64,000 bases of DNA from positions 1-64,000 of the forward strand of contig PAHY01000016.1 in assembly GCA_002705055.1 (NCBI GenBank), read 5' to 3'. Below, piece after piece: positions 4,164 through 20,360 of the stretch. The stretch comes from Planctomycetota bacterium. Its GTDB lineage: Bacteria > Planctomycetota > UBA1135. A model generated the notes under the pieces. The model was not told where the DNA came from, searched no databases, and saw nothing but the letters and a program-made list of their open reading frames with translations. Position 1 is the stretch's first letter; each line of letters opens with the position of its first letter. The position numbers were made by a program, and so were the translations under genes.

Positions 4164-4584
4164 CGCTCTTCCTCAGTTCGCCGCGCAGCTGACCCTGCGC
4201 ATCCAGAATGAGTTCGCCCTGCCAGGCCTGGCTGCCTTCGCGTCGCGCCACCAGCCGCGGGCGCCCCAGGGCATCGCGTTTGACCAGAAAGCGGAAGCCC
4301 TCGACCTCGCCCGGAAGGTTGCCGGGGATCACGACGGCGCGCTGCAGTTCGCGCACCGAGTCGGCGAAGCGGCCGGTTTCGAGGCGGTACACGCGCTGCG
4401 CGCGCCACAGCGACTCGAGCTCGGCGGCACCGCGCTGCACGCGCGCGGACTCGTGCGCGTCTGCGAAGGATGGCACGGCCGCCATCGACATCATTGCGAC
4501 GATCACCAGGACGAGCAGCAGCTCAAACAGCGAAAAGCCCGCGCGCGTCCGGCGCCGCGGGTGGAGGCGGCGCACCCGGATCAA
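4141..4584 (-). CDS. Prepilin-type N-methylation protein (GspH/GspG-like pseudopilin)
   Basis: RAGFSLFELLLVLVIVAMMSMAAVP motif. Confidence 0.75.
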   Translation of the reverse strand: MIRVRRLHPRRRTRAGFSLFELLLVLVIVAMMSMAAVPSFADAHESARVQRGAAELESLWRAQRVYRLETGRFADSVRELQRAVVIPGNLPGEVEGFRFLVKRDALGRPRLVARREGSQAWQGELILDAQGQLRGELRKSDGEVLQP

Positions 4585-5744
4585 CTTCCGGCTCCTCCGC
4601 TTCCGCCGAGCGCGGACAGGACCTGCAGGGCGACGCCGGACGGGCGCTCGGCGCTCCCGCCCTCTCCAGAGCGCTGAATCAACGCTTCAAGAACCGGCGC
4701 GAGCTCAGCGGCGTCTGCGCCGAGGCGCAGCGCCTCGAGGTAGGTGTCCATCGCCAGCTGATGCTGACCGGCGCGCATCCGCAGATGACCCAGGATGAGC
4801 AGCGCATCAGCGCGGCCCGGGTCCAGACGCAAAGCCGAACGCAGCGCTTCCAGCGAAGCGCGATCGCCATCCTGCAGCAGATGCGCGCGCGCCAGGTCGA
4901 CCCAGGCGCTGACGTCATCCGGGAAGGCGTTGAGATAGCGGTCGAGCCAGAACACGGCTTCCTCCGCTTCATCAACGATCAGCGCCGAGCGCGCCAGCGC
5001 GAGCTCGACATAAGGCGGGACCTCGGTCTCGCTGACTTCGCGAATGGTGCGCAGCGCTTCCAGGTGCTGGCCGGAGAGCGATTGCGCGAAGGCCAGGCGC
5101 ACGCGCAGCGGGCCGACCTGCGGATCGTGATCCAGCGCGACGGAATACCACTCAGCAGCGAGCTCGTAGTCGCCACCGGCGAGGTAGGCCTCGCCGAGCG
5201 CTTCCTGCAGCTCGCGCACATTTGGCAGCACGGCCAGCTTGCGCTCGAGCAGAGCGGCGGCGTTCGCGGGCAGGCCGAGCACCAGCTCGATCCGCGCCAG
5301 CAGCAGCACCGCGGAGACGGATTCCGGCGCCTTTTCCAGCGCCCGCCCATAGGCGACGCGCGCCATTTCCCAGCGCGCGCGAGCCTCGGCGAGGGTGCCG
5401 ATCACGATGTCGACCTCGGCTTCGTCCGGGAAGGCCTCGGCGAGCAGGGTGAGCATCTCCCCGGCTTCCAGGAACTGACCCTTCGCGATCAGCGTCCGCG
5501 CCATCACCAGCTGCCCGTGCGCATTGCTCGACAGTCCGGCGGCAATCTCCTGAATCCGCGCGCTCGCCATGCCGACGTCGCCGGCGTTCAGCGCGCGCTC
5601 CGCCTGATCGATCATCAGCTGAGTCCGCGTTTCCTGATGCTCGGTGGTCACAAAATCCTCCGGCAACTGCTGCACGCTGCCACAGGCGGGCACCAGCGCG
5701 GCGACCACGAGCAGACAGGACAGGCGAGAGGAGCGGACCAGCAT
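4581..5744 (-). CDS. TPR-repeat lipoprotein (PilF-like)
   Basis: Lipobox-like LVPACGS; repeated TPR-type helical pairs; adjacent to secretin. Confidence 0.7.
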   Translation of the reverse strand: MLVRSSRLSCLLVVAALVPACGSVQQLPEDFVTTEHQETRTQLMIDQAERALNAGDVGMASARIQEIAAGLSSNAHGQLVMARTLIAKGQFLEAGEMLTLLAEAFPDEAEVDIVIGTLAEARARWEMARVAYGRALEKAPESVSAVLLLARIELVLGLPANAAALLERKLAVLPNVRELQEALGEAYLAGGDYELAAEWYSVALDHDPQVGPLRVRLAFAQSLSGQHLEALRTIREVSETEVPPYVELALARSALIVDEAEEAVFWLDRYLNAFPDDVSAWVDLARAHLLQDGDRASLEALRSALRLDPGRADALLILGHLRMRAGQHQLAMDTYLEALRLGADAAELAPVLEALIQRSGEGGSAERPSGVALQVLSALGGSGGAGS

Positions 5745-5761
5745 GGAGAGACTCCGAGGAC

Positions 5762-7513
5762 TTATCGGTTGGACAGCACGCCAGCCTTGAGCTCGTCCAG
5801 CAGGCGCGCATCGACCGAGCGGGCGGCGAACTCGGGCACCAGACCCCGGGCGATCCGGGACTGCAGCTCCTTGTCCTTGGGCTCGGCGGCGCGGCCGTGG
5901 CGCGCAACCTCAAGAAGGGAGAGCGCGCAGCCGTACTCGGCCTCCAGGACCAGGGCGCGGGCGGTGCGGGCGTACAGCTCGTTGATGACCGCGCGGTCGC
6001 CCCCGCGGCGCTCGTGCGGATGGCGCTCGTTGAGGCCCACCGCCTTGGCTTCGGCTTCCAGGTCGATGATCCGGGGCGTGATCAGGAAGATCAGCTCCTC
6101 GCGGACCACCTGCTCGTCCTTCGAACGGAAGGCCGCGCCGACGCCCGGCACATCGCCGAGACCGGGCACCTTGCCGTTGGTGGCGATCTTCTTCTCGCGG
6201 AACAGACCGCCGATCACCAGCGTCTGGCCATCGCGCACCGCGACGTTCGAAGTCAGGTTGGCGGTCTCTTCCTCGGGCAGGCCGTTGGCATTAATGCCAC
6301 CGTCCGAATCCTCCGGCTGAATCTCCATCCGCACCAGCCCATGATCCATGATGAACGGACGCACCTTGAAGGTCGAACCGGTCTCGAGGAACTCGACCTC
6401 TTCGCTTTCGGTGCCGTTCTGGTTCGTCGACAGCGTCTTGAAGCCGTCACGGTTGTTCAGCTTGATGTTGCCGAACTGCTTGTTCAGCACGAACACGCTG
6501 GTGTTGGCGTGAATCGAGACCGAGGTCTTTTCGCTGAGCGCCCGCACGAAAGCGGACAGGCCGTTGGTGATGAAGCCGAACTGCGAACCCCGCGTCGCCA
6601 GCGTGCTGGCGATGTTCGACGAGAAGCGGCCCAGCCCGTCCGACAGCTGCGCCGCGCTGAACACGTTGTTGTTCAGGCTGTGGCCATCACCGCTGGTGGC
6701 GCCATACTCCTCGTAGTTGACCCCGCCCAGCGCGTCGAAGTTGATGCCCAGCTGCTCGGTCGCACCCAGCGTCGCCGAGATCACCATGACTTCGACCATG
6801 ACCTGCTTGGGCGTGCGGTCGATCCGGTCCAGGATCCGCTGCACGTTGTCCAGGTTCTCCGGGAAGTCGCGGACGACCAGCACGCCATCATTGGCGTAAG
6901 CATCGCCGCCGGTCACGCCCTCGCCGGCTTCCAGGCCGGTGACCGCTTCCTTGGAAGCCGTCACGTTCGCCTCGGTGCCTTCGCTCAGCGCCGGCTTGAT
7001 CAGCTCGGCGGCCTCGCCGGCGGGCAGGTGCCGCACCGTGAAGACCCGCATCTCTTTGGCGCGATTCGAGATCTGGATGTAACTGCCGTGATCCTTGGCC
7101 ACCAGCCCGGTCGCGCGGCAGATCAGCTCGATCGCCTCTTCGGGCTCCACCGAGTAGAGGTCGCCGCCCCAGGTCGCAGTCACGTCCTTGTCGACCAGGA
7201 TGTTGCGACGCAGCGCCACGCGCAGCTCACGAAACACATCGCTGACCGGCTTCTCCTTGACCAGGAAGTTCATGCCCCGACCATTCGCCGCTCCGGCGAG
7301 CGGGCGGTCGTTGGGGTCGTAGCCGCCGCCGGGCAGATCGAGCGCGAGCAGCCGATCCACTTTCGAGGCATCGGCCACCGGGTCGCCCGGGCGTGGCTGG
7401 TAGACGGCGGCGCCGTTGGGGCGCACGCGCGAGGAACGCTCCGTCTCCTGCGCGAGCAGCGGCTGCGCGGTCAGAGCGAAAGCAAGAATGGGTAGCAGGA
7501 TCTGGCGCATCAT
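5762..7513 (-). CDS. Secretin (GspD/PilQ family)
   Basis: Signal peptide, N-domains, secretin core (SVSIHANTSVFVLNKQFG ... NLTSNVAVRDGQTLVIGGLFREKK ... ELIFLITPRII). Confidence 0.88.
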   Translation of the reverse strand: MMRQILLPILAFALTAQPLLAQETERSSRVRPNGAAVYQPRPGDPVADASKVDRLLALDLPGGGYDPNDRPLAGAANGRGMNFLVKEKPVSDVFRELRVALRRNILVDKDVTATWGGDLYSVEPEEAIELICRATGLVAKDHGSYIQISNRAKEMRVFTVRHLPAGEAAELIKPALSEGTEANVTASKEAVTGLEAGEGVTGGDAYANDGVLVVRDFPENLDNVQRILDRIDRTPKQVMVEVMVISATLGATEQLGINFDALGGVNYEEYGATSGDGHSLNNNVFSAAQLSDGLGRFSSNIASTLATRGSQFGFITNGLSAFVRALSEKTSVSIHANTSVFVLNKQFGNIKLNNRDGFKTLSTNQNGTESEEVEFLETGSTFKVRPFIMDHGLVRMEIQPEDSDGGINANGLPEEETANLTSNVAVRDGQTLVIGGLFREKKIATNGKVPGLGDVPGVGAAFRSKDEQVVREELIFLITPRIIDLEAEAKAVGLNERHPHERRGGDRAVINELYARTARALVLEAEYGCALSLLEVARHGRAAEPKDKELQSRIARGLVPEFAARSVDARLLDELKAGVLSNR

Positions 7514-8616
7514 CAGGTGGCCATTTCAAAGAGTGGGAGGTAGAGCGCGGTCAGGATCAGCGCGATCGCGACACCCATGCAGACGATCAGCACCGTCTCG
7601 ATGTTGCCGGCGATTCGCGTGACGACCGTCTCGACCTTGCGGGTGTAGAACTGGCCGACTTCCGCCATCACGTCGGGAAGCTGGCCGGTTCGCTCGCCGA
7701 TGCGAATCATGTTGGCGAGGAAGGCGGTGAACACACCGGTCGACTCGAGGCCGTCCGCCAGGTTGCCGCCTCGGCCCACGTGCTGGGCCGTGCGCTTCAT
7801 CGCCGCGCGGTAGACCGGGTTCTCCTTGTAGATGCCCTTCATCGCGTCGAGCGAGTCGAGCACCGGGACGCCCGCGCGCAGCAGGGCGCTGATGTTCTGG
7901 GCGAAGGTCCGCATCGAGGACTGCACGATCAGATCGCCGAACAGCGGCATCGAGACGCACAGCTTCGACCAGACGATGTGGCCGTTCTCGGTCTTCTTCC
8001 AGCGCTTGAAGCCGAACACCGCGACGGCGATGCCGCCGGCGATCGAAGTCCAGTTCGCGCGCAGGAAGTCTGAGATCGCCATGACCTTGATGGTGATCGC
8101 CGGCAGCTCCTTGTCCATCTCCTCGAACATCGAGGCGAAGGTCGGCACGACGAAGATCAGCATCACCGCGACCGCGCCCATCGAGACGCACATCACGATG
8201 ATCGGGTACATCAGGGCGCTCACGACTTTGGCGCGGAACTGCTGCGCCTCGTCGATCTGCGCCGCCAGTCGCACCAGCACGTCGCCGAGCTTGCCGGAGA
8301 TCTCGCCGGACTTGACCAGCTGCACCCACTCGGCCTTAAAGTGCTCCGGGTAGGTGTCGAGCGCTTCCGAGAAGCTGGAGCCGCCCGCGACCTTGTCGGA
8401 GATGTCCGAAATGATCCGGCCCAGGCCGCGTGACTCGGTCTGCTCCGAGGCGATCACCAGCGCGTCGTAGAGCGGCGTGCCGGCGGTGAACAGCGTGTTC
8501 AGCTGGCGGAAGAAGGCCAGCTTGTCCGGAAGCTGGATCTTCTCGTGCTTCGAAATCGAGACCCGCGGCCGAATGAAGCCGTTCAGGACGATCTCGGGAT
8601 TCTCGACAGCCTGCAT
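7513..8616 (-). CDS. Type II secretion/type IV pilus inner-membrane protein (GspF/PilC)
   Basis: FFRQLNTLFTAGTPLYDAL and repeated GspF domain; LLRAGVPVLDSLDAM. Confidence 0.9.
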   Translation of the reverse strand: MQAVENPEIVLNGFIRPRVSISKHEKIQLPDKLAFFRQLNTLFTAGTPLYDALVIASEQTESRGLGRIISDISDKVAGGSSFSEALDTYPEHFKAEWVQLVKSGEISGKLGDVLVRLAAQIDEAQQFRAKVVSALMYPIIVMCVSMGAVAVMLIFVVPTFASMFEEMDKELPAITIKVMAISDFLRANWTSIAGGIAVAVFGFKRWKKTENGHIVWSKLCVSMPLFGDLIVQSSMRTFAQNISALLRAGVPVLDSLDAMKGIYKENPVYRAAMKRTAQHVGRGGNLADGLESTGVFTAFLANMIRIGERTGQLPDVMAEVGQFYTRKVETVVTRIAGNIETVLIVCMGVAIALILTALYLPLFEMAT

Positions 8617-8619
8617 CGC

Positions 8620-10626
8620 TTAGTCCTTGAGCCCATCCCGGATGTAATCCGAGACCTCATGCAGGCTGGTGATCCCTTCGCGCAGCTTCTTCAGCGCGCT
8701 GTCGGGGATGAGGTCGATGCCGCGCTCGCGGACGACGTGTTCGAGTTTCTTCTCCGACTCGGCTTTGCAGATCATCTCCTGCAGTTCCTCGTCGACCGGC
8801 ACCACTTCATAGATGCCGACGCGGCCCTTGTAGCCTCCCCCGTTGCACTTGGGGCAGTCCGGGGCGTCGCCCGGGCCGTAAACGATCTCGCCCGCTTCCA
8901 TGCCGTGGCGCGCCGCGACGTCATCGGGCAGCTCGACCTGGACCTTGCACTCGGTGCAAAGTCGACGAACGAGACGCTGTGCCTCGATCAGGCGCAGCGC
9001 GGGGCCGAGCAGGAAAGGCTCGATGCCCATGTCCGTGAGGCGCGTCACCACCTGCAGCGCCGAGTTGGTGTGCAGCGTGCTCAGCACCAAGTGGCCGGTC
9101 AGCGCCGCGCGCATGCAGATGCCCGCGGTTTCGGCGTCACGCACCTCACCCACCATGATCACGTCCGGGTCCTGGCGCAGGAAGGCGCGCAGCGCGCCGG
9201 CGAAGGTCATGCCCGCGCTGGCGCGGATCGGCACCTGGTTCAGGCCGTGGAACTTGAATTCGACCGGATCCTCGACGGTGACGATGTTCTTGTCCGGCGT
9301 GTTGGTCAGGTTCAGCGCGCAGTACAGCGTCGTCGACTTACCCGAGCCCGTCGGGCCGGTGACGAACATCAGTCCGTGGTGCGCGTTCGCTGCCTCGATG
9401 AAGTCCGCGGCCTGGCGATCGCTGAAGCCCAGGAACTCCATGTTGTCCGGGATGCCATCCTTGTCGAGGATACGCAGCACCATCTTCTCGCCGTAGCAGG
9501 TCGGCACGGTCGAGGCGCGCAGGTCCACGCGGGACTTGCCGTCGCGCATCATGATGCCGCCGTCCTGCGGGACCCGCTTCTCGGCGATGTCCATCTTCGA
9601 CAGGATCTTGAGCCGCGAGATCATCTGCGGGAACAGATGCTTCGGCGGCGTCTCAAACTCGCTCAGCTTGCCGTCAATGCGGAAGCGAATCCGCACATCG
9701 TTCTCGTAGGGTTCGAGGTGAAGGTCACTCGCGCCGCGGCGCACGCCTTCGGCCAGGACGTGGTTGACGAGGCGCAGCACCTGCGACTCGGGTCCGGGCG
9801 GCAGTGGGCGGCGCAGGTCGACGTCGACGACGTCGTCGTACTCCTCCAGATCCCCGCCTTCTGATCCGCCAAAGTCGCCGCCGCCGAAGTCCGACTCCAA
9901 GCCACCACCCAGGCCGCTGTCCAAGCCGCCGCCCAGTCCGGCATCGAGGCCGGCTCCCAGACCGCCGCCGAGACCATCCATCAGTCCGCCGGCTGCCGGC
10001 GGCACCGTCTCTTCGACTTCATGCCCGGTCGTTTGTTCCGCGGCCGGTGCGTCGGCTGCGAGATTCGCCAGGCCGGCGAGATCGGCGAGAGGGCCGGCAT
10101 CGGGCGGCGTGGCGACGCCGGCGGCCAGCGCGGTCTCGATGCGCTGACGAAGCGTACGCGTGCCGGGGTGCAGCACGATCGCCTTGCCGCTCGCAAGGCG
10201 CGCCTCTTCCCCCAGTTGGGGATCCGCGGCATCGGCCGTGACGAGATGCAGAGCGCCGTCGCGCTCGGCCAAAGGCTGCACCCCGCGCTCGACGCACCAG
10301 CTCGGATCCAGACCGGCGCGATCCGCCACCGCTCCCAGCACGATCTCCAGCTCGCCCCATTCAGTCGAACTGCCATCCGGTCGCCGCTCCACGACGATCT
10401 CGCCGCCCATCAGCTGCTCTTCGAGCTCGAACCACGAACGACCGAGCGAGGTCGCGAGGCACTGCGCGATGGCCGACTCGGCCACCTTGCCGGACTTCAG
10501 CAGGCGGTCTTCGACTTCGACGGATCCGGCGTCCGCCGGGATCGCCAGCGCTGCGAGGTCCTCCGCGCCGAGCAGGCCGGCTGCCAGGACCTGGCGCGCG
10601 AGGAAGGAGTTCGGTTCCGATGTCAT
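8620..10626 (-). CDS. GspE/PilB family assembly ATPase
   Basis: Walker A GPTGSGKSTTLY, RQDPDVIMVGEVRD, CTEC...CPKC zinc motif; Gly-rich interdomain linker. Confidence 0.93.
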   Translation of the reverse strand: MTSEPNSFLARQVLAAGLLGAEDLAALAIPADAGSVEVEDRLLKSGKVAESAIAQCLATSLGRSWFELEEQLMGGEIVVERRPDGSSTEWGELEIVLGAVADRAGLDPSWCVERGVQPLAERDGALHLVTADAADPQLGEEARLASGKAIVLHPGTRTLRQRIETALAAGVATPPDAGPLADLAGLANLAADAPAAEQTTGHEVEETVPPAAGGLMDGLGGGLGAGLDAGLGGGLDSGLGGGLESDFGGGDFGGSEGGDLEEYDDVVDVDLRRPLPPGPESQVLRLVNHVLAEGVRRGASDLHLEPYENDVRIRFRIDGKLSEFETPPKHLFPQMISRLKILSKMDIAEKRVPQDGGIMMRDGKSRVDLRASTVPTCYGEKMVLRILDKDGIPDNMEFLGFSDRQAADFIEAANAHHGLMFVTGPTGSGKSTTLYCALNLTNTPDKNIVTVEDPVEFKFHGLNQVPIRASAGMTFAGALRAFLRQDPDVIMVGEVRDAETAGICMRAALTGHLVLSTLHTNSALQVVTRLTDMGIEPFLLGPALRLIEAQRLVRRLCTECKVQVELPDDVAARHGMEAGEIVYGPGDAPDCPKCNGGGYKGRVGIYEVVPVDEELQEMICKAESEKKLEHVVRERGIDLIPDSALKKLREGITSLHEVSDYIRDGLKD

Positions 10627-10669
10627 GGGAGGAGAGGGAATTCCCCCGTCCTCTTCGGCCGAATTCGCC

Positions 10670-11257
10670 CTAGGGCTGTTGCACGGGCGGCCCTTCCGCG
10701 GCCCCCTCGAGCGTCTCCTCGGGCAGATCCGCGATCAGCTTCGCCTTGGTGCGGAGCAAGCTCAGCCGAGGGAAGTCGTACAAGTGCATGGTGTAGTCCT
10801 TCTCGAGATAACGGACCGTCACCTCGGGTCCGGCGATCCGTCGCACCTCGACCAGCACCCCATCCGCGACCCCCATCCGCGCGCCCTCTTCGTAGTGGCG
10901 CCCGTTGATGAAGGCCAGGCTCTGCTGGGAAGGCCGCGCGATCACCGACTGCAGCTCGAGCATCGGCGCCTCGCCGGCATCTTCGACCGCCTCGCCGACC
11001 GGCCCGCGGTCCTCGATCACTTCATTGCCGCGGTCGCGCGCATCCATGCGCTCGGCCATGCGGAAGGGGTCAAAGTCGAGCGCCAGCTCCTCGCCCGGGG
11101 CGCGATGCGAGAGCGAATCCGCCGGTACGCTCGGCAGCACATCGGGGATGTCCAGCAGGCCGGCGACGTCCTCGGGATCCTGGCCGCGACTCCAACCGGA
11201 GTACGCCAGCAGGACCGCCACGACGATCAGCACGTGGGTCTTCAGCTTCTCGAGCAT
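10670..11257 (-). CDS. PilP/GspC-like pilus alignment protein
   Basis: Single TM, operon position next to PilO-like gene, small C-terminal beta domain. Confidence 0.5.
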   Translation of the reverse strand: MLEKLKTHVLIVVAVLLAYSGWSRGQDPEDVAGLLDIPDVLPSVPADSLSHRAPGEELALDFDPFRMAERMDARDRGNEVIEDRGPVGEAVEDAGEAPMLELQSVIARPSQQSLAFINGRHYEEGARMGVADGVLVEVRRIAGPEVTVRYLEKDYTMHLYDFPRLSLLRTKAKLIADLPEETLEGAAEGPPVQQP

Positions 11258-11829
11258 CAGGCCCCGCCTCCGTACATCCGAGCGCGCTTCTGCGCCGTCG
11301 TCTCGCCGACGAAGCAGCGCACCGTCGCGCGCAACGAGAGCGTGTTGTTCTGGGGCCGGATCGCGAACTCATCGATGCGCAGATAGCGGTCGCCGCGTTC
11401 GAGCAGGTCCATCAGCTCAACCAGCTGCTCGAAGCTACCGGTCACCATCAGCTCCCGAATGTAGAAGGTGTAGTCCATGATGGACTCCGACTTCCGTTCG
11501 GTGCTGGCCAGCATCTTGGCACCCGACTCGCCGATCGCCGCCTTGATGTAGTTATCCCAATCGGTGGGATTCTTCTCGGCGACCATGCGCTCTTCAAAGG
11601 AGCCCGTCTGCCCTTCCAGCTCGCGAATCTCCTCGACCCAGGTCGCGAGCTTCGACAGAGACTCGCGGTCCTCGCGTGCTTGCACCAGGCGCTTTTCCAG
11701 CGGCCCGAGCAGCGCGAACCAGCCGACCACCAGCAGGATGCCGGCGACGAAGCCGCGGTAGCCTTCGTCGGTCGCCGTCCACTTCAGGACGTTGCCCTTC
11801 AGCTTGACGAGGTCTTCTTTGACTCCCAT
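11257..11829 (-). CDS. PilO-like (GspM-like) protein
   Basis: Size, single N-terminal TM and coiled coil, position between PilMN-like and PilP-like genes. Confidence 0.5.
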   Translation of the reverse strand: MGVKEDLVKLKGNVLKWTATDEGYRGFVAGILLVVGWFALLGPLEKRLVQAREDRESLSKLATWVEEIRELEGQTGSFEERMVAEKNPTDWDNYIKAAIGESGAKMLASTERKSESIMDYTFYIRELMVTGSFEQLVELMDLLERGDRYLRIDEFAIRPQNNTLSLRATVRCFVGETTAQKRARMYGGGA

Positions 11830-11831
11830 GG

Positions 11832-13373
11832 CTAGTGCCCCATGCCGGGCGAGCGCGCCTCGATGGTGAACAGGAAACGTTCTTCGCCGTTCTCTTCCTG
11901 CGTGGAGATGCTGGAGTTGCCGATGTTCGGGAACACCGACGAGATCGTCTTGCTCGCCTTCAGCGCGCTGACGATCTGTTCGCGTTCGTCGCCGAGGTAG
12001 CCGTCGTAGCTAGGCAGGAACATGCCCAGCTTGAGTCGCCGCATCGACTGCAGATCGGGCACCCCGCTTTCGCCGCCGTCTTCATCCTCATCGTCGCCGA
12101 CGAGCGTGGGCACGAACTTGTACGGGTACATGCCTTCGAGGTCGGTCAGCCAGCAGCCGTCCGGGGTCGCTGCGCCGATCTCAAGCAGCAGCTGGCCCCA
12201 GTAGACGCGCTGCACCAGGAACGCTTCGGCCACGCCGACTTCGATTCCCATCGCGTCGCGCAGATCGACGATGTCTTCGCGCGTGATCTCGCGCTCAACC
12301 ATCAGCTCTTCGATCGAAGCTTCCATCGCGGCGACTTCGTCGAGCACCGAGCTTCCTTTGCTCCACAGGTGCGCCGCCCCGACCAGCAGCGCGGCTGCAG
12401 CCGGCAGCGCGTGCTTCAGCGGGAAGGAAGGGCGCTCGCCTTCCACGGCCAGGACGGATCCCAACTCGAGCGGCGCCTGGCGCCCACGGCGCGAAGCGCC
12501 GCACAGCATCGCAGCCAGCGCCGCGCGCTTCACCGGCACTTCCGGCGCGTGCACGACCGGCACATTCAAGCTGGCGCAGCAGGGCTGCACCACCGGCAGG
12601 TCGGCTTCGTTGCAGTGCAATATCACACCGCTGAGTTCGCCCAGCTGCAGCTCGGTCTGGGCCGCCGCCGCCAGGCGCTGCAGCACCGAGCTGAGCGCCG
12701 CCACTTTGGCCTCGCCCTGCGTCGGCACCGTCTGGCGCGCCACCGGAACACCACGGAAACACAGCAGCGCCACGCTCTCCGGCTCGTCGACCAGCACGCG
12801 GATCTCGACCTTCCACTTGCGCGGCGTCTTCTTCTTTTTGCGCGCCAGCGCGTCGACCACGTGGGTGGTCGAGAGGAAGTGAATGTTGTGGCGGCCGATC
12901 GGCTTCAGCCCGTCCAGGACCGAAAGGCCGATGCGACGCGGGAAGAACAGCAGGCTCTTCAGCTTGATCTTGTTCGTCCCGGCCTTGTTCTCACGCGAAG
13001 AGACGCCGCCCGGCAGGCGCCCGGCAAGGCGGTCCGCCAGCTGCCCCTGCGCCTGGATCTGATTGCCGTCATCGGCGCGAGCCGTCGACAGGAAATCCAG
13101 CGTCGGATCGAGGCCGATCGCGACGTTGCGCCCGAGCTCCCCGCGCTCGAGCAGCTGCTGCAGCGTGGCAGCGAGCTTGCCGTCTTCGACCGGATACTCC
13201 TTCACGGAGCTCAGGTTCTGCAAGCCGTCTTCCAGCTTGCCAGCGAAGACGTGCACCGAACGCTGACCGACCAAGATGCCACTGGCCTTGGGGCCAGTCA
13301 CCTTGGGAGCGGCATCACCCTTCTGCTTGCGCAGCGCGGCGAGCTTCTCTTTGACGGCGTCGAGTGCGGACAT
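11832..13373 (-). CDS. Fused PilM-PilN (GspL-like) protein
   Basis: Actin-like N-terminal half (GILVGQRSVHVFAGKL...) followed by TM and PilN-like region; start MSALDAVKEK chosen at 13373. Confidence 0.5.
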   Translation of the reverse strand: MSALDAVKEKLAALRKQKGDAAPKVTGPKASGILVGQRSVHVFAGKLEDGLQNLSSVKEYPVEDGKLAATLQQLLERGELGRNVAIGLDPTLDFLSTARADDGNQIQAQGQLADRLAGRLPGGVSSRENKAGTNKIKLKSLLFFPRRIGLSVLDGLKPIGRHNIHFLSTTHVVDALARKKKKTPRKWKVEIRVLVDEPESVALLCFRGVPVARQTVPTQGEAKVAALSSVLQRLAAAAQTELQLGELSGVILHCNEADLPVVQPCCASLNVPVVHAPEVPVKRAALAAMLCGASRRGRQAPLELGSVLAVEGERPSFPLKHALPAAAALLVGAAHLWSKGSSVLDEVAAMEASIEELMVEREITREDIVDLRDAMGIEVGVAEAFLVQRVYWGQLLLEIGAATPDGCWLTDLEGMYPYKFVPTLVGDDEDEDGGESGVPDLQSMRRLKLGMFLPSYDGYLGDEREQIVSALKASKTISSVFPNIGNSSISTQEENGEERFLFTIEARSPGMGH

Positions 13374-13401
13374 GAAGTGGAATCGGGGGCTTCCATGCAA
13401 G

Positions 13402-13434
13402 TCGGGCCCGCGGTCAGGTTGACCGAGGGCCCGA
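13402..13434 (-). terminator. Stem-loop between pilin 1 and pilMN-like gene (attenuator/processing hairpin?)
   Basis: TCGGGCCC-gc-GGTCA-ggt-TGACC-ga-GGGCCCGA; no T-run follows on the minus strand. Confidence 0.5.
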
Positions 13435-13457
13435 GCTCATCTGTTCCCAGAAGGGTC

Positions 13458-13886
13458 TTACTTGACCGGGATCAGTTCCTCGGCGAGCGAGCTGCGGCTG
13501 CGCACGAAGCCGTCCTGGTCCCAGGTCACGGTGTAGTTACCGAAGCCCGAGGAAGCACCCGAACGGGTGAGGCGCAGTTCCCACTGGGTCTGCCAGTCGT
13601 AGCTGGTGAAGGTACCGACCGAGAAGTGGTTCGGGGTCGGCAGCTTGACGTCGAGCTGCGAGATGTTCTGGGCGTACTCACCAGTGCGGGCGTTGTGACG
13701 CTCCTGACCAGCTTCAACCTGGGCCAGGTAGTTGAACGCTTCGGCGGCCTTGGCGCGCTCGACGGCGGTCTGGTAACGCGGCACCGCCATCATGGCGAGC
13801 ACACCGAGGATGACAACGACGATGGTCAGCTCGACGAGCGAGAAGCCAGCCTGGCCGTTGTTCCGGAGGGACTTGAAGGTTTTCAT
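13458..13886 (-). CDS. Type IV pilin paralog 1 of array
   Basis: QAGFSLVELTIVVVILGVLAMMAVPRYQTAVERAK; shared core WQTQWELRLTRSGASSGFGNYTVTWDQDGF. Confidence 0.88.
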   Translation of the reverse strand: MKTFKSLRNNGQAGFSLVELTIVVVILGVLAMMAVPRYQTAVERAKAAEAFNYLAQVEAGQERHNARTGEYAQNISQLDVKLPTPNHFSVGTFTSYDWQTQWELRLTRSGASSGFGNYTVTWDQDGFVRSRSSLAEELIPVK

Positions 13887-13941
13887 TCGATTGGTTTGAC
13901 GGGTGTCAGTTGGAGGGTATTCCCGATACGCATCGTGTCGG

Positions 13942-13975
13942 GGCGAAACAGTTATCGGGATGACAGTGTTTCGCC
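13942..13975 (-). terminator. Stem-loop overlapping 3' end of pilin 2
   Basis: GGCGAAACA ... TGTTTCGCC perfect 9-bp arms, extended by GTTATC/GATGAC; stop codon lies inside. Confidence 0.45.
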
Positions 13976-14428
13976 TTGAGTCTCCAGGAGGATTTTTCGG
14001 TGATACCCCCTGGGAAGGAGGGAATCCGGGATCGTGCTGGGCCCGATCAGGAAGCCATCCTGAGACCAGACAATGGTGTAGCGACCAAAGCCGTTCGTGG
14101 CGCCTTCACGGCGCAGGACGATCCGATAGCCGGTCTCCCAGTTCCCCGAGTCATGCGAGGACAGACGAAAACCGAGCGGCAGCGAGCCTTCGAGATCGAG
14201 GGCGCGCAGCGTGCGCGCGTACATCCCGTTCTCGATCGAGTAGCGCTCCTGAGAAGCCTGCAGCTGAGCCAGCGTGGAGAACGCCTGCGTCGCGCGCGCG
14301 CGCTCGATCGCAAACTGATAGCGCGGCAGCGCAGCCACGACCAGCACGCCGATGATCGTGACCACGACGGCGAGCTCCACCATCGTGAAGCCGCCAGCGC
14401 GGGTCGCTCGGGATCGGAGGGTCTGCAT
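13952..14428 (-). CDS. Type IV pilin paralog 2 of array
   Basis: AGGFTMVELAVVVTIIGVLVVAALPRYQFAIERAR; core NGFGRYTIVWSQDGF. Confidence 0.85.
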   Translation of the reverse strand: MQTLRSRATRAGGFTMVELAVVVTIIGVLVVAALPRYQFAIERARATQAFSTLAQLQASQERYSIENGMYARTLRALDLEGSLPLGFRLSSHDSGNWETGYRIVLRREGATNGFGRYTIVWSQDGFLIGPSTIPDSLLPRGYHRKILLETQGETLSSR

Positions 14429-14442
14429 GGGCGGGGCGACGC

Positions 14443-14456
14443 AAGAGACGTCTCTT
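14443..14456. promoter_or_regulatory. 14-bp perfect palindrome AAGAGACGTCTCTT upstream of pilin 2 start
   Basis: Exact self-complementarity; 15 nt from ATG at 14428. Confidence 0.4.
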
Positions 14457-14496
14457 CCCTATCGACCAGCCGGTTCGGCCGACTTCACCGGAACGC

Positions 14497-14529
14497 AAAA
14501 CCCGCGAGTGTGTTGGGCACACCCGCGGG
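14497..14529 (-). terminator. Intrinsic terminator-like hairpin downstream of pilin 3
   Basis: CCCGCG-a-GTGTG-loop-CACAC-c-CGCGGG followed on the minus strand by TTTT. Confidence 0.7.
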
Positions 14530-14554
14530 CGGAAAATCACACGGACAGATAGAT

Positions 14555-14983
14555 CTACATCACCGGCAGCAGATCGTTCTTGATCGAGCTGCGACCGCGA
14601 GTGAAACCGTCCTGGTTCCAGGTCACGGTGTAGTTGCCGAAGCCGGACGAAGCGCCCTGACGGGTCAGACGCAGTTCCCACTGAGTCTGCCAGTTGTAGG
14701 AGCTGAAGTTGCCGACGCTGAAGTGCTGCGGCGAGCTCATCTTGATATCGAGCTGGCCCATGTTCTTCGCGTACTCGCCGGTGCGGGCGTTGTGGCGCTC
14801 CTGCGCGCCCTCGATTTGAGACAGATAGGTGAAGGCTTCCGCAGCCTTCGCACGCTCGACGGCGGTCTGGTAGCGAGGCACGGCCATCATCGAGAGAACG
14901 CCCAGAATGACGACCACGATCGTCAGTTCGACGAGCGAGAAACCAGCCGATCCTTGAGCGGGGGTTTGCTTGTAAGTTTTCAT
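14555..14983 (-). CDS. Type IV pilin paralog 3 of array
   Basis: SAGFSLVELTIVVVILGVLSMMAVPRYQTAVERAK; core GASSGFGNYTVTWNQDGF. Confidence 0.88.
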   Translation of the reverse strand: MKTYKQTPAQGSAGFSLVELTIVVVILGVLSMMAVPRYQTAVERAKAAEAFTYLSQIEGAQERHNARTGEYAKNMGQLDIKMSSPQHFSVGNFSSYNWQTQWELRLTRQGASSGFGNYTVTWNQDGFTRGRSSIKNDLLPVM

Positions 14984-15077
14984 CAGTAGTTCAAACAGAA
15001 AGAAGGAGGCTCCCGCCCAATGTGGGGCTGGCGGGGAGAGCGGTCATCCCGCTCCGTCGCCTTTCGACGAAGGCGAC

Positions 15078-15092
15078 GTCCCGCCTTGAGAC
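15078..15092. promoter_or_regulatory. Pilin-array palindrome-like element (GTCCCGCCTTGAGAC)
   Basis: Matches degenerate GTCTCrACTTGAGAC seen upstream of other array members; upstream of pilin 3. Confidence 0.35.
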
Positions 15093-15144
15093 AATCGGCC
15101 CAATAAGAGACAGGCCGGCGCGCGGGCAGAGTGGAAAAGAAGAT

Positions 15145-15176
15145 GCGCCCGCGACCTCTCCCCAGGCCACGGGCGC
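15145..15176 (-). terminator. Terminator-like hairpin downstream of pilin 4
   Basis: GCGCCCG ... CGGGCGC arms, minus strand then reads ATCTTCTTTTCC. Confidence 0.55.
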
Positions 15177-15207
15177 GATTCCCCTAACTCGAATCTCTCA
15201 GATTCCT

Positions 15208-15636
15208 TTACAGGACAGGAATCAGATCGGTGTGGATGGAGCTGCGCGAGCGCACGAACCCATCCTGGTTCCAGGTGACCGTGTACGCACCAAAGCCGCT
15301 CGAGGCGCCGGCGCGGGTCAAACGGAGCTCCCACTGGGTCTGCCAGTTGTAGGAGGTGAAGTTGCCCACGGTGAAGTGGTTCGGCTTCTTGACCTTGATG
15401 TCCAGACGGCCCAGCTGCTTGGCGTACTCGCCGGTGCGGGCGTTGTGGCGCTCCTGGGCGCCCTCGATCTGAGCCAGGTAGGTGTAGGCCTCCGAGGCCT
15501 TGGCACGCTCGACGGCAGTCTGATAACGCGGCACCGCCATCATGGCGAGCACACCGAGAATGACGACCACGATGGTCAGTTCGACGAGCGAGAAGCCGGC
15601 CTGTTGGCCGCCGGCGGTGTTCTTGAAGGTCTTCAT
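15208..15636 (-). CDS. Type IV pilin paralog 4 of array
   Basis: QAGFSLVELTIVVVILGVLAMMAVPRYQTAVERAK; core GASSGFGAYTVTWNQDGF. Confidence 0.88.
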   Translation of the reverse strand: MKTFKNTAGGQQAGFSLVELTIVVVILGVLAMMAVPRYQTAVERAKASEAYTYLAQIEGAQERHNARTGEYAKQLGRLDIKVKKPNHFTVGNFTSYNWQTQWELRLTRAGASSGFGAYTVTWNQDGFVRSRSSIHTDLIPVL

Positions 15637-15696
15637 GATGGGATCCGGGTGATGCTGTCCTGTGGAATCCTGCGCTCTGAGGCGCCTAAAACGGCC

Positions 15697-15732
15697 GGAA
15701 GCCCGACCGATACAGCTATCGGCCGGGCTTCC
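15697..15732 (-). terminator. Terminator-like hairpin downstream of pilin 5
   Basis: GGAAGCCCG-a-CCGAT-acagct-ATCGG-c-CGGGCTTCC; minus strand continues GGCCGTTTTAGG. Confidence 0.65.
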
Positions 15733-15744
15733 CTTGCAGCTTGA

Positions 15745-16170
15745 CTACTTCGTGCGCAGTTTCTGCGGAATCGAAGAACGACCCGGAGCGAAGCCACGCT
15801 CGTTGTAGGTCACGGTGTAGTTGCCAAAGCCGCTCGAGGCGCCGGTGCGGGTCAGCTTGACCTCCCACTTGGTCTGCCAGTTGGTCGAGGTCGGCGTGCC
15901 GATCGAGAAGTGGTTCGGCTTCGGAGCCTTGATGTCCAGCTTGTTCAGATTGCTGGCGTACTCGCCTGTGCGGGCGTTGTACATCTCTTGGCCTTTGGCA
16001 ATCTGATCCAGATAAACGAAGGCTTCGCTGGCCTTGCTCTGCTCAACGACCGTCTGGTAGCGCGGCACCGCCATCATGGCGAGCACGCCAAGAATGACGA
16101 CCACGATGGTCAGCTCGACCAGCGAGAAGCCGGCCTGGCCCTTGGAAGTGTGGAGGGAGTGGAGTTTCAT
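15745..16170 (-). CDS. Type IV pilin paralog 5 of array
   Basis: QAGFSLVELTIVVVILGVLAMMAVPRYQTVVEQSK; core GASSGFGNYTVTYNERGF. Confidence 0.88.
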   Translation of the reverse strand: MKLHSLHTSKGQAGFSLVELTIVVVILGVLAMMAVPRYQTVVEQSKASEAFVYLDQIAKGQEMYNARTGEYASNLNKLDIKAPKPNHFSIGTPTSTNWQTKWEVKLTRTGASSGFGNYTVTYNERGFAPGRSSIPQKLRTK

Positions 16171-16249
16171 GGTTCTAAGTAGAGAGTTGCGGTTGTTCGT
16201 TCACCCGCTGCGCTCCTCCATCGAACGAAGGGCGTGCGGAAGTGAAGTG

Positions 16250-16267
16250 AAAAGCAGGCTTTCCTGC
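16250..16267 (-). terminator. Short terminator-like hairpin downstream of pilin 6
   Basis: Minus strand GCAGG-AAAG-CCTGC-TTTT. Confidence 0.5.
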
Positions 16268-16281
16268 GATCCGTGCGCGGC

Positions 16282-16989
16282 CTAGCGGTTTCCGCGGCCC
16301 CGGTTTCCGGTGCGACCGCCGCCTTCGCCGTTGCCGACGCCGTTGTTGCCACGCGGGCCTCGGCCGTTGTTGCCCGAGTTCCCGTTGTTGCCGTTGTTGC
16401 CGTTGCTGTTCGAGCTGCCGCCATTGCTGCCCGAGCTGCCGTTCGCGGGCGGGTTGGCGTTGTTCCCGCTGCCGCCTGAGCTTGAACCGCTGTTCGAGCC
16501 GGCGTTGGAGCTGGAACCACCGCCCGACGAGGAGCTCGCTGACTGCTCGCCCCCATCGCCGGTCGGCGAAAGCGAGGCCGGAATGGAGCAGCGGGGTGCA
16601 TCAAACCCCTGCTCATTCCAGGCCACGCTGTACGCGCCGAAACCCGAGGACGCGCCCGCGCGCGTCAGCTTGAGGTTCCAGCGGGTCTGCCAGTCATAGC
16701 TGCTCAGCGCGCCCACATCGAAGTGCTGCGGGTCGGGCACGCGGATCGACAGCTTGTCCAGAGAGTCTGCATAGCTGCCGTTGCGAGCCTGGTACATCTC
16801 CTGCGCGTTGGCGATGTGCGCGAGGTAGGTGTAGGCCTCGCTGGCCTTGGATCGCTCCACCACCGCGGCATAGCGCGGCACGGCCATCATGGCGAGGACG
16901 CCGAGAATCACGACGACAATCGTGAGTTCGACCAGCGAGAAGCCGGCGCTGGAGCGCGCGGCGGAGACACGGGGGGCATGGATCCTCAT
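16282..16989 (-). CDS. Type IV pilin paralog 6 with ~92-aa Asn/Gly/Ser-rich C-terminal tail
   Basis: SAGFSLVELTIVVVILGVLAMMAVPRY; GASSGFGAYSVAWNEQGF; low-complexity tail; start at 16989 rather than ORF start 17058. Confidence 0.82.
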   Translation of the reverse strand: MRIHAPRVSAARSSAGFSLVELTIVVVILGVLAMMAVPRYAAVVERSKASEAYTYLAHIANAQEMYQARNGSYADSLDKLSIRVPDPQHFDVGALSSYDWQTRWNLKLTRAGASSGFGAYSVAWNEQGFDAPRCSIPASLSPTGDGGEQSASSSSGGGSSSNAGSNSGSSSGGSGNNANPPANGSSGSNGGSSNSNGNNGNNGNSGNNGRGPRGNNGVGNGEGGGRTGNRGRGNR

Positions 16990-17028
16990 GACGTTGGAGG
17001 GGTCTGGCTCAAATCGGCGCAGTGCCCA

Positions 17029-17041
17029 TCTCAACTTGAGA
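17029..17041. promoter_or_regulatory. Pilin-array palindrome TCTCAACTTGAGA upstream of pilin 6
   Basis: Odd-centred perfect inverted repeat ~40 nt upstream of ATG 16989. Confidence 0.5.
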
Positions 17042-17058
17042 GGCAAGCCCCCATTCAC

Positions 17059-17850
17059 CTACCAGCCCAGCCGGTAGGAGGTGTAGGAGTAGTGCCACTG
17101 CAGAATGAAGTCGAGGTAGTAGTCCTCGCCCTGCGTGTAGTCCTCGGCCGTCATGCCGAAGAAGCGCTCGTTGGTCTGCTCCTGGGTCTCGTTCGAGCGG
17201 TTGAAGATGTTCTCGACGATGTTGAGGAACCACAGCATCGTGTCCAAGTAGGGATCCTCGCCCTCTTCGTAGTCGAGCGAGTTCGCCGTAAACATGCGCT
17301 CGCGGTACTGCTCGAAGCTCTGCGGGCTGTTCGATTCCCAGTTCAGCGAACCAGTCGGCTGCGGGCCGCGCGCGCGGGAACTGCCGCGCGAAGCGCTGCT
17401 CGCGGTCAGCTTGCCGCCGATCCCCGTTGGGGAGATCTCCCTCGCGATGCTGGATCGCTCGGGGGCAAAGCCGCCTTCATCCCAGGCCACGGTGTAGGCG
17501 CCGTACCCCTGCGAAGCCCCGCTGCGCTGCAGCTTGAGCTGCCAGGTGGTCTGCCAGTCCACGCTGGCGAGCTCGCCGACCTCGAAGAAGCTCGGGTCAT
17601 CCAGCCGCAGGCCGAGCTTAGCCAGCTTGTTCGCATACTGGCCGTGCCGGGCCTGGTACATCTCCTGCGCCTTCGCGACGTGCTGGAGGTAGACGTAGGC
17701 TTCGCTGGCCTTGCTCCGCTCGCTGATCTGGTGGTATTTCGGCACCGCCATCATGGCGAGCACGCCAAGAATGACGACCACGATGGTCAGCTCGACCAGC
17801 GAGAAGCCAGCCTGAGCACGGAATCGACGGGGGGCGCGGGGGGAACGCAT
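17059..17850 (-). CDS. Type IV pilin paralog 7 with ~121-aa C-terminal extension carrying an internal repeat
   Basis: QAGFSLVELTIVVVILGVLAMMAVPKY; GASQGYGAYTVAWDEGGF; start at 17850. Confidence 0.82.
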   Translation of the reverse strand: MRSPRAPRRFRAQAGFSLVELTIVVVILGVLAMMAVPKYHQISERSKASEAYVYLQHVAKAQEMYQARHGQYANKLAKLGLRLDDPSFFEVGELASVDWQTTWQLKLQRSGASQGYGAYTVAWDEGGFAPERSSIAREISPTGIGGKLTASSASRGSSRARGPQPTGSLNWESNSPQSFEQYRERMFTANSLDYEEGEDPYLDTMLWFLNIVENIFNRSNETQEQTNERFFGMTAEDYTQGEDYYLDFILQWHYSYTSYRLGW

Positions 17851-17879
17851 GGTCTCCCCGGCTCTTCGACCGGCACCGC

Positions 17880-17894
17880 GTCTCGACTTGAGAC
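17880..17894. promoter_or_regulatory. Pilin-array palindrome GTCTCGACTTGAGAC upstream of pilin 7
   Basis: GTCTC/GAGAC arms ~30 nt upstream of ATG 17850. Confidence 0.5.
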
Positions 17895-17940
17895 AGCAGT
17901 GGACGGGCGAGCCCACTCAAGGGGGTCAGCCTCAGCCGGC

Positions 17941-18327
17941 TCAGAAGATCGGAATCAGCCGCTGCGGCAGATCCGAGTTCAAGCTGTCGAAACCGGCGGA
18001 AGTCCAGACCACCCGATACGCCCCCGCCTCCTCCGACGGCGGCCAGCGCTCCAGTTGGACGGTCCAGTTGTCATTCTCAGCAACTCCATGTAACTCCCAG
18101 ACTCGAAAGTACTTCGGTTGGGTCAGCCCAGGCTCGAGCTGATCAAGCGAGTCGGCGAAGTGGCCCGTACGAGCGCGGAATCGCTGTTGCATCGCCTCCA
18201 CTTGAGCCAAGTAGGCGAAGGCCTCGGAGGCCCGCGCTCGCTCCGACGAGCCGCAAACGGACGGCTTCGGCAGAGCCGCGAGCGCAACCACGGCTCCGGC
18301 AGCAAGCAGGGGTCCGAGCTTGGCCAT
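17941..18327 (-). CDS. Degenerate pilin-like paralog 8 without prepilin cleavage motif
   Basis: Retains RASEAFAYLAQVEAMQQRFRARTGHFADSLDQL and AGAYRVVWTSAGFDSLNSDLPQRL but no GF[ST]xxE. Confidence 0.7.
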   Translation of the reverse strand: MAKLGPLLAAGAVVALAALPKPSVCGSSERARASEAFAYLAQVEAMQQRFRARTGHFADSLDQLEPGLTQPKYFRVWELHGVAENDNWTVQLERWPPSEEAGAYRVVWTSAGFDSLNSDLPQRLIPIF

Positions 18328-18344
18328 CCCTCTCTCTCGGCCGT

Positions 18345-18818
18345 TTACGGCGCGCGGCTCGAGACTGCGGCGCCTGGCACCAGCGTCCCGGCGACGGTGG
18401 AGCGGTCGCGCTGGAATCCCCGCTCGCTGAAGACCACGGTGTAGGGGCCATGCCCGCCGTTGGGCTCCCGGCGGATCAGCCGCAGGCTCCAGCGGCGCTC
18501 CCAATCCAGGCTGAAAGCCTCGCCGATCACAAACCAGCGCGGCGTTGCCATGCCCAGGTCCAGGTCTTCAAGCCGGCGCGCGTACTCACCGCACCAGGCG
18601 CGGTGGCGCTCCTGCGCCTTGGCCACGTGACTCAGATAGACGAAGGCCTCGGAAGCCCGCGCCTGCTCCGAAAGCAGCTGCACCCGCGGCAGCCCCATCG
18701 AAAGGAAGCAGCCCAGGACCGCCAGAACCACGGAGAGTTCAGCGAGACTGAAGCCGCGCGAGGCGGAGGCCGCTCGTGCGGCGCGGGGCAGGGGGGCGAG
18801 CACCGAAAGAGACTCCAT
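18345..18818 (-). CDS. Type IV pilin paralog 9 of array
   Basis: SRGFSLAELSVVLAVLGCFLSMGLPR; start at 18818 rather than ORF start 19139. Confidence 0.8.
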   Translation of the reverse strand: MESLSVLAPLPRAARAASASRGFSLAELSVVLAVLGCFLSMGLPRVQLLSEQARASEAFVYLSHVAKAQERHRAWCGEYARRLEDLDLGMATPRWFVIGEAFSLDWERRWSLRLIRREPNGGHGPYTVVFSERGFQRDRSTVAGTLVPGAAVSSRAP

Positions 18819-18836
18819 CTCTACGACGGCACCCCA

Positions 18837-18855
18837 GAGTCTCAACTTGAGACTC
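18837..18855. promoter_or_regulatory. 19-bp perfect palindrome GAGTCTCAACTTGAGACTC upstream of pilin 9
   Basis: Perfect 9-bp arms around a single central C, 18 nt upstream of ATG 18818. Confidence 0.55.
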
Positions 18856-18891
18856 TCGCCCGGAAAAGCGTCTCGAAATCGACCTGCGCGC

Positions 18892-20346
18892 CTAGGTGCG
18901 CGCCGCGGCCCGCTCGGCGGAGAGCGCTTCCAGATGCTCGGTGGCATCCCGCGTCGGGTACTTGCCGGTGAAGCAGCCGGAGCAGAAGGCCTCGACCTTC
19001 GGGTTGCCCGCTCGCGCCGCCTCGACCATGCGCTCGAGCTCGAGGTAGACCAGATGATCGGCGCCGATCTCGGTGGCCACGTCGTCGACCGACTTGCCCC
19101 GCGCGACGAAGTCCTTTTCCGTCGCCATATCGATGCCATACGGGCAAGCGGCGATCAGCGGCGGCGAGGTCGAGGCGAAGTAGACCTGATTGGCCCCCGC
19201 GCTGCGCGCGGCTTCGATGATCTTGCGCGAAGTGTTGCCGCGCACGATCGAGTCGTCGACCAGCAGCACGTTCTTGCCCTCAAACTCGAGCGGAATCGGG
19301 TTGAGCTTGCGACGGATCGAAGTCTGCCGCGCCTGCTGGTTGGGCATGATGAAGGTCCGCCCGACGTAGCGGTTCTTGATGAAGCCCTCGCGGTAGGGAA
19401 CGCCCAGCTCCTGCGCCATCGACAGCGCGGCATCGCGCGCGCTGTCCGGGATGGGGATCACCACATCCGGCTCGGGCGCGCCGGACTCGCGCCACTGCTG
19501 CGCGAGGGTTTCGCCGAAGCGGCGCCGCGTCTTGTAGACGCTGATCTCGTCGAGGAAGGAATCCGGCCGCGCGAAGTAAACCAGCTCGAAGATGCAAGGG
19601 CGGTGCTCCTGCTCGACCACCTGGATCCAGATCGGATCCTGACCCGGCTCGACCAGGATTGCCTCGCCGTTGCGCAGATCGCGCACGCGGGTGAAGCCCA
19701 GCACATCCAGGGCAACCGACTCGCTGGCGACCGCCCATTCGGTGCCTTCTTCCGTCTCGCGCTTGCCGACGATGCACGGCTTGATGCCGGTCGGATCGCG
19801 GAAGGCGAACAGCGTGCCCTCGGCCAGAATCCCCGCCACGGAGTACGCGCCCTTGGTCGTCTCGAAGGCGCGCGCCGTCGCCAGCCGCATGCGCTGTTCA
19901 CGCGGCAGCGAGGGATCGGCATCCTTCATCCCGCTGGCGAAGGCGTAGAGAATCGCCTCGACGTCGCAGGAAGACTCCAGCGTGATGTGATTGGCCGGAT
20001 ACTCGCGCGACTTGAGATCCATCCAGTTGGTCAAGTTCCCGTTGTGCGTCATGCCGATGCCAAACGGGAAGTTGATGTAGAAGGGCTGCGCGTCCTGGTC
20101 GGCGCCCATGCCCACCGTCGGATAGCGCACGTGCGCGATCGCCAGGTTGCCCGTCAGCCGCTGCATATCGAGCGCGCTGAAGATGTCGCGCACCATGCCG
20201 TTCTGCTTGCGCAGATGGAACATGCCGTCAAAAGACAGAATGCCCGCCGCGTCTTGCCCGCGGTGCTGGAGTGCGATGAGCCCCTCGTAGAGTTCAGGGG
20301 CGACGTCCTTCCCAGGAAGGCCTGCGATGCCGATGAAGCCGCACAT
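18892..20346 (-). CDS. purF: Amidophosphoribosyltransferase
   Basis: MCGFIGIAG N-terminal nucleophile Cys; GLIALQHRGQDAAGI; PRTase motif VLLVDDSIVRGNTSRKII. Confidence 0.95.
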   Translation of the reverse strand: MCGFIGIAGLPGKDVAPELYEGLIALQHRGQDAAGILSFDGMFHLRKQNGMVRDIFSALDMQRLTGNLAIAHVRYPTVGMGADQDAQPFYINFPFGIGMTHNGNLTNWMDLKSREYPANHITLESSCDVEAILYAFASGMKDADPSLPREQRMRLATARAFETTKGAYSVAGILAEGTLFAFRDPTGIKPCIVGKRETEEGTEWAVASESVALDVLGFTRVRDLRNGEAILVEPGQDPIWIQVVEQEHRPCIFELVYFARPDSFLDEISVYKTRRRFGETLAQQWRESGAPEPDVVIPIPDSARDAALSMAQELGVPYREGFIKNRYVGRTFIMPNQQARQTSIRRKLNPIPLEFEGKNVLLVDDSIVRGNTSRKIIEAARSAGANQVYFASTSPPLIAACPYGIDMATEKDFVARGKSVDDVATEIGADHLVYLELERMVEAARAGNPKVEAFCSGCFTGKYPTRDATEHLEALSAERAAART

Positions 20347-20360
20347 GGAGGACTTCCATT

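Follow-up and report, generated by a model that had tools for sequence, protein, structure and literature searches.

How a single filament assembly machine comes to be accompanied by nine pilin genes is the question raised by a locus in the window analyzed here, a 64,000-nucleotide stretch of contig PAHY01000016.1 (C18) from a 3.85 Mb, 85% complete genome of a Planctomycetota bacterium. In nearly all type IV pili (T4P) that have been studied the number of major pilins is one or two; it is two in the known heteropolymer. In the window, nine consecutive minus-strand open reading frames (ORFs; 13458-18818), designated p1 to p9 in order of transcription (p1, p2, p3, p4, p5, p6, p7, p8, p9), are flanked by purF and by the gene for a PilM/PilN-like protein (PilMN). 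The initial annotation placed this array behind PilMN, but in transcription order it lies upstream. Our results suggest that the locus probably encodes one dedicated extracellular type IV filament (T4F) machine, of mixed T4P and type II secretion system (T2SS) make-up, together with a multiplied set of individually expressed major-pilin-like subunits, a repertoire shaped by birth and death.

A profile built from the seven clearest copies recovered all nine array ORFs in a search of the genome (E 4e-24 to 4e-78), so that the nine same-strand genes form one family, as had been proposed. The prepilin N-terminus ascribed to all of them is present in eight, which carry a class III prepilin leader; p2 lacks the leader expected of type IVa pilus (T4aP) pilins. 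Its frame opens (M-A-K-L) at the place of the mature pilin start, with no GF[ST]LxE motif and with Lys instead of Glu5, and its GC3 of 0.74 is still coding-like. p2 may be a decayed gene or a pilin-domain protein that does not enter the filament. A purine-rich, ribosome-site-like stretch accompanies it. The GASSGFGxYTV core that was said to unite the copies is present in all nine when they are aligned, but in strict form only in p5, p6, p7 and p9; slight alterations are seen in p4 (GASSGFGAYSV), p3 (GASQGYG) and p8 (GATNGFG), whereas p1 and p2 have a degenerate version. No curated model names this core in Pfam and curated-model searches, and Pfam matched the array pilins just to N_methyl and, weakly or marginally, to ComP_DUS. 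Because the copies share 43-77% protein identity and syntenic arrays are found in separately assembled genomes, chance and misassembly of a single strain are excluded as the source of the array. Neither of the outcomes that the initial annotation named as refuting it was thus observed.

The gene order mnmH/selU-purF-[pilin]n-PilMN-O-P-B-C-Q-TPR-minor pilins recurs across genera of one GTDB family, as the initial annotation had invited others to check. The relatives are uncultured Planctomycetota metagenome-assembled genomes (MAGs), and the more distant ones are Isosphaeraceae and Phycisphaerales. Array size ranges from one to nine pilins: nine in the window, seven in G011, six in G023, four in G001, two each in G002, G008, G015 and G017 (whose contig does not reach the purF side of the locus), and one in G004. 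When we scanned 392 planctomycete genomes, a sample of the phylum covering part of the GTDB family, the pilin family was detected in just 20 at E 1e-25; copies per genome were highest in the window genome (9), with 8 in G023, 4 in G001 and one or two outside the GTDB family. This bears out the view that the pilin repertoire on one machine is unusually large. In the tree, the array copies are paralogues, as anticipated. Some are lineage-specific duplicates, namely p3/p4/p5, G011_4059/4651, G023_7292/7899 and two identical G017 genes, and others have cross-genus partners (p9 with G011_6157, and p8 with G011_5697, although the latter pairing joins two long branches and may be false). Judged from this tree, the history of the array is one of birth and death with some conserved members. 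The G017 pair (L129:4126-5506) is 100% identical in coding DNA with different flanks, and may reflect a very recent duplication or conversion.

Reading of the intergenic DNA first revealed a two-box, sigma28/FliA-like element, TMAAG-N15/16-GYCGAWRG, upstream of most array pilins. The pattern was drawn from the window genome (G000), G011 and G023, and then tested on other genomes at a threshold score of at least 11 of 13. In these independent genomes the element was present upstream of 21 of 24 pilins and of 7 of 263 (2.7%) other ORFs (p 1.5e-15). With the spacer allowed to vary from 11 to 20, 34 of 38 sites fell at 15 or 16, and the mean score was 11.21 versus 8.57 (sd 0.22) for shuffled motifs (z 11.9), the opposite strand (8.4) being at background. 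A sigma28 (FliA) promoter is expected to have a TAAA/TCAA box and a GCCGATAA box at fixed spacing. The boxes of the element match Escherichia coli FliA sites, for example that at flgKL, TCAAG...GCCGATAAT (PMC4183435), but the spacing after the G is 15-16 versus 14 in the E. coli sites, i.e., 1-2 nt longer. A FliA_WhiG sigma factor scored over cut-off in 17 of 18 genomes of the GTDB family, and in the window genome its gene is located between apt and a biotin-ligase-like gene, a non-flagellar context (ORFs read by eye). Flagellin was not found in any of the nine genomes tested, and hence no flagellin promoters were available as a yardstick for this factor. From these data we infer that the pilin promoters may be read by a FliA/WhiG-type sigma factor. 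In addition, the genome contains exact copies of the palindrome TCTCAAGTTGAGA at two places only, upstream of p1 and upstream of p4. It may be an operator for a subset of the pilins, but it overlaps the -35 box.

Strong terminators follow 18 of 31 pilins, versus 0 of 57 machine, purF and selU ORFs (p 9e-11) and 5 of 168 other ORFs (p 3e-13), and homologues of the p6 terminator follow two pilin genes in G011 and one in G008. In each of the nine genomes that carry the machine, the RNA of the gap between the last pilin and PilMN can form a strong fold (-19 to -66 kcal/mol); positions 10000-21000 gave no match to an RNA family in Rfam. Most core pilins thus look like separate transcription units, and the notion of an array fused into one co-transcribed operon does not fit the strong intrinsic terminators and separate promoter-like elements that divide it. 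The same features support separate expression of the copies, and any one of pilin switching, mixed pili or several fibres from one machine, the possibilities initially envisaged, may apply.

If the copies were functionally equivalent, extra genes would just raise the dose of an abundant subunit while drifting by birth and death. Lineage-specific duplicates, the two identical copies in G017, the leaderless p2, and the low dN and high dS of the core copies favor this idea. However, an operon suffices for dose, whereas regulation of the array looks individual, and in another genus (G011) the position of p9 is held by a counterpart of it. The C-terminal addition of p3 also argues against equivalence, as it is conserved in that genus at 41% identity, the only occurrence outside the window genome (1 other genome of 61). 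It was modelled as a flexible linker followed by two similar units that together comprise six predicted helices (pLDDT ~60-83); it had no Pfam match, and a fold search with the p3 model returned the pilin part only. Values of dN/dS were 0.18-0.22 among p6, p7 and p9, and 0.39-0.52 for p3/p4 and p5/p6. The core copies are under purifying selection (dN/dS ~0.2), and the specialised copies change faster. We consider it quite unlikely that dose alone explains the array. Low-complexity tails rich in Ser, Gly, Lys and Asp, recalling that of p4, were also seen on solitary pilins of relatives far from the array (L126:7428-8168, L139:10158-11003 and L141:10256-10831).

In Neisseria, the tandem pilin paralogues of pilE/pilS include promoterless, truncated silent cassettes that recombine into one expressed gene. 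The planctomycete array is likewise tandem, and p3 and p5 share a 19-codon silent run in the alpha1-N region (Bonferroni p 0.04), in which 16 of 16 fourfold sites are identical. A store of this kind, serving antigenic variation by gene conversion, is nevertheless very improbable here: silent truncated copies were not found in the array, whose copies are full genes, eight of nine with leaders and most with their own promoter-like element, and after correction no significant conversion was detected in G011, G023 or G001. Since significance was reached only for p3/p5, we rejected gene conversion as a force acting generally on the array.

The AlphaFold2 model of p9 (60-sequence alignment; pLDDT 89.2) shows an extended helix at the N-terminus and, beyond it, a small sheet of antiparallel strands. 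The top Foldseek matches were FimA, PAK pilin and gonococcal PilE (TM 0.61-0.66; E 1.5e-4 to 9e-4). As modelled, p9 has a T4a-type pilin fold. The closest solved chain by sequence was Myxococcus PilA, in its N-terminal part only.

These results bear on a different proposal, that the machine is T2SS-like and makes no surface pilus. In this view the nine proteins would act as GspG-like major pseudopilins in a short piston within the periplasm, and their number would reflect the different cargo to be served. Several components lean this way. The PilM and PilN parts are united in one GspL-like protein, followed by a protein with weak GspM matches; the platform protein scored 293 bits with GspF versus 252 with PilC, and the secretin 161 with GspD versus 151 with PilQ. 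Four H-I-J-K-like minor pilin genes (2873-4584) stand at the opposite end of the cluster from the array, and PilT is absent from the cluster, which has a single ATPase. In contrast, this ATPase is closer to PilB (TIGR02538, its best model, 520.8 bits; cut-off 675.65) than to GspE (484 bits), and the pilin profile and fold best match T4 pilins, at most 43.6 bits being reached with the GspG equivalog TIGR01710 (cut-off 88.85). Moreover, elsewhere in the genome a separate locus (C15) encodes a GspE and contains four prepilin genes. The T2SS equivalogs remained below their curated cut-offs (GspD 160.7/351, GspE 484/630, GspF 293/424, GspM 23/60). Separate PilM, PilN, PilO and PilP are not present either, as there is one PilMN-type protein and the PilO and PilP parts are unrecognised by Pfam and NCBIfam models. 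None of the components attained a curated cut-off for T4aP or T2SS, and therefore the machine was filed as neither. A purely secretory piston appears unlikely to us, and we favor an extracellular filament. Further ATPase loci in the genome are C15, C42 and C49. The last (L180) is likely a second T4P core, as it combines a PilC-like ORF with three ATPases, two of PilB type and one the size of PilT; comparable ATPase sets are present in most genomes of the GTDB family. A large heparinase-like ORF, read by eye (349-2871, plus strand), is divergent from the minor-pilin end of the cluster.

Whether the array pilins depend on the machine can be judged from four array-bearing relatives (G016, G021, G024 and G025) that lack PilMN as well as the cognate ATPase (over 900 bits). 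Their contigs run on beyond the array into other genes, and G021 retains a 47-codon PilMN remnant. By hand counting, leader and frame were intact in 6 of 13 array pilins in these relatives versus 33 of 35 in machine-bearing genomes (p 6e-4). Because machine loss goes with broken leaders or frames, the pilins appear to depend at least partly on the machine. Relaxed selection after machine loss was not supported for the compared copies, with the exception of G24_1/G25_3 (dN/dS 0.34). In G021 (L137), an oxidoreductase-like gene set (3499-12427; ORF reading) occupies the machine's place between array pilins and minor-pilin remnants, likely a replacement event.

Several observations weigh against a dedicated machine served by individually expressed pilins. 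Some surviving pilins in the machine-less relatives keep a low dN/dS (0.04), and therefore either dependence is incomplete or the machine was lost recently. No clear promoter element was found for p5, that of p1 is weak, and the -10 box of the p6 and p7 elements coincides with a hairpin. The element is also present upstream of other genes and is not pilin-specific, the FliA_WhiG sigma factor is encoded in genomes without an array as well, and all array-bearing genomes are MAGs that are 75-90% complete.

Table. Positions of the array pilins, assembly genes and candidate regulatory features in the window.
Feature	Position	Strand	Remarks
p1, pilin	18345..18818	minus	leader RGFSLAE; divergent (degenerate) core
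p2, pilin-domain ORF	17941..18327	minus	starts MAKLGPLL, no prepilin leader; 17 nt after p1; GC3 0.74
p3, pilin	17059..17850	minus	C-terminal addition ~115 aa
p4, pilin	16282..16989	minus	C-terminal tail ~95 aa, rich in Ser/Gly/Asn
p5, core-type pilin	15745..16170	minus	
p6, core-type pilin	15208..15636	minus	
p7, core-type pilin	14555..14983	minus	
p8, divergent pilin	13952..14428	minus	GGFTMVEL; next-to-last place, as G011_5697 in G011
p9, core-type pilin	13458..13886	minus	AlphaFold2 model is a type IV pilin fold
Weak element of p1	18823..18850	minus	TCAAG-N15-GCCGTCGT; seen by eye; another site scores higher for p1
Element of p3	17863..17891	minus	TCAAG-N16-GTCGAAGA
Element of p4	17011..17039	minus	TCAAG-N16-GCCGATTT
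Element of p6	15716..15744	minus	TCAAG-N16-GCCGATAG
Element of p7	15061..15089	minus	TCAAG-N16-GTCGAAAG
Element of p8	14459..14487	minus	TGAAG-N16-GTCGATAG
Candidate element of p9	13952..13979	minus	TCAAG-N15-CCCGATAA; inside p8 3' end
Palindrome TCTCAAGTTGAGA	18840-18852 (p1), 17029-17041 (p4); one-mismatch copy 17881-17893 (p3)		overlaps -35 box
Weak terminator-like hairpin after p4	16254..16267	minus	
Hairpin after p5	15697..15732	minus	GGAAGCCCGGCCGATAGCTGTATCGGTCGGGCTTCC; from sequence
Strong terminator after p6	15145..15176	minus	
Strong terminator after p7	14500..14530	minus	
Strong stem-loop between p9 and PilMN	13402..13434	minus	no T-run
PilM/PilN-like (GspL-like) inner-membrane protein	11832..13400	minus	522 aa
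PilO/GspM-like protein	11257..11829	minus	weak GspM matches
PilP/GspC-like protein	10670..11257	minus	by position and layout, no family match
Assembly ATPase, PilB/GspE family	8620..10626	minus	
PilC/GspF platform protein	7513..8616	minus	
Secretin (PilQ/GspD)	5762..7513	minus	
TPR lipoprotein-like protein	4581..5744	minus	
Four minor-pilin-like genes	4141-4584, 3795-4163, 3301-about 3804, 2873-3313	minus	H, I, J, K order

Previously, Streptococcus sanguinis T4P were shown to contain two major pilins, PilE1 and PilE2, which was called unusual, and they are the only solved bacterial heteropolymeric T4F (PMC10628169, PMC6497953). As in S. sanguinis, the locus encodes several major pilins for one machine, and the copies can differ in exposed regions; however, S. 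sanguinis is a monoderm with two majors, whereas the array comprises nine copies, mostly putative separate units, in a diderm with a secretin. In Thermus thermophilus, a single machinery produces both wide and narrow T4P (PMC13039148). It similarly combines one machine with alternative pilin subunits, but makes two filament types, in contrast to nine tandem paralogues that precede the machine genes. In Synechocystis, PilA exists in eleven variants, and the group 3 sigma factor SigF acts on the pilA1-pilA2 operon and not on other T4P components (PMC7690835). It shares with the array the multiplicity of pilins and, if our proposal holds, a sigma factor acting on pilin genes; however, its pilins do not form one nine-gene tandem array, and SigF may not be the counterpart of the proposed sigma factor. 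Finally, S. sanguinis PilB is a bimodular pilin with an added C-terminal domain (PMC8179133), like p3, although the domain added in p3 is a helical repeat that matches no Pfam family and is not a known adhesin type. In the open-licence literature that we searched, no report was found of an arrangement in which nine pilin genes, most of them self-contained units, stand in tandem ahead of a single machine.

Altogether, we propose that each pilin would be transcribed from its own promoter by a FliA/WhiG-type sigma factor, and that the stem-loop after the last pilin might limit read-through into the machine genes, such that pilin output would exceed machine output. p5, p6, p7 and p9 would be interchangeable shaft subunits, while p3, with its added helical domain, p4, with its low-complexity tail, and p8 may be specialised subunits that show other surfaces on the filament. 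By the choice of transcribed units, the cell could tune or switch filament composition, and the set would evolve through tandem birth and death of entire promoter-pilin-terminator modules. A more far-reaching version, which we advance tentatively and regard as rather doubtful, is that in planctomycetes without detected flagellin a FliA/WhiG-family sigma factor was rewired to up to nine separately promoted pilins, giving one machine with programmable filaments, and that p3-type helical-domain subunits and the leaderless p2 represent new kinds of component.

A machine with nine candidate major subunits, mostly in separate units, makes transcriptional tuning of pilus make-up testable, and the machine-less relatives provide natural tests of pilin dependence. 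The locus also points to a possible non-flagellar job of a FliA-type sigma factor in bacteria without detected flagellin. If the units are indeed separately switched, the cell could alter the make-up of its surface fibres.

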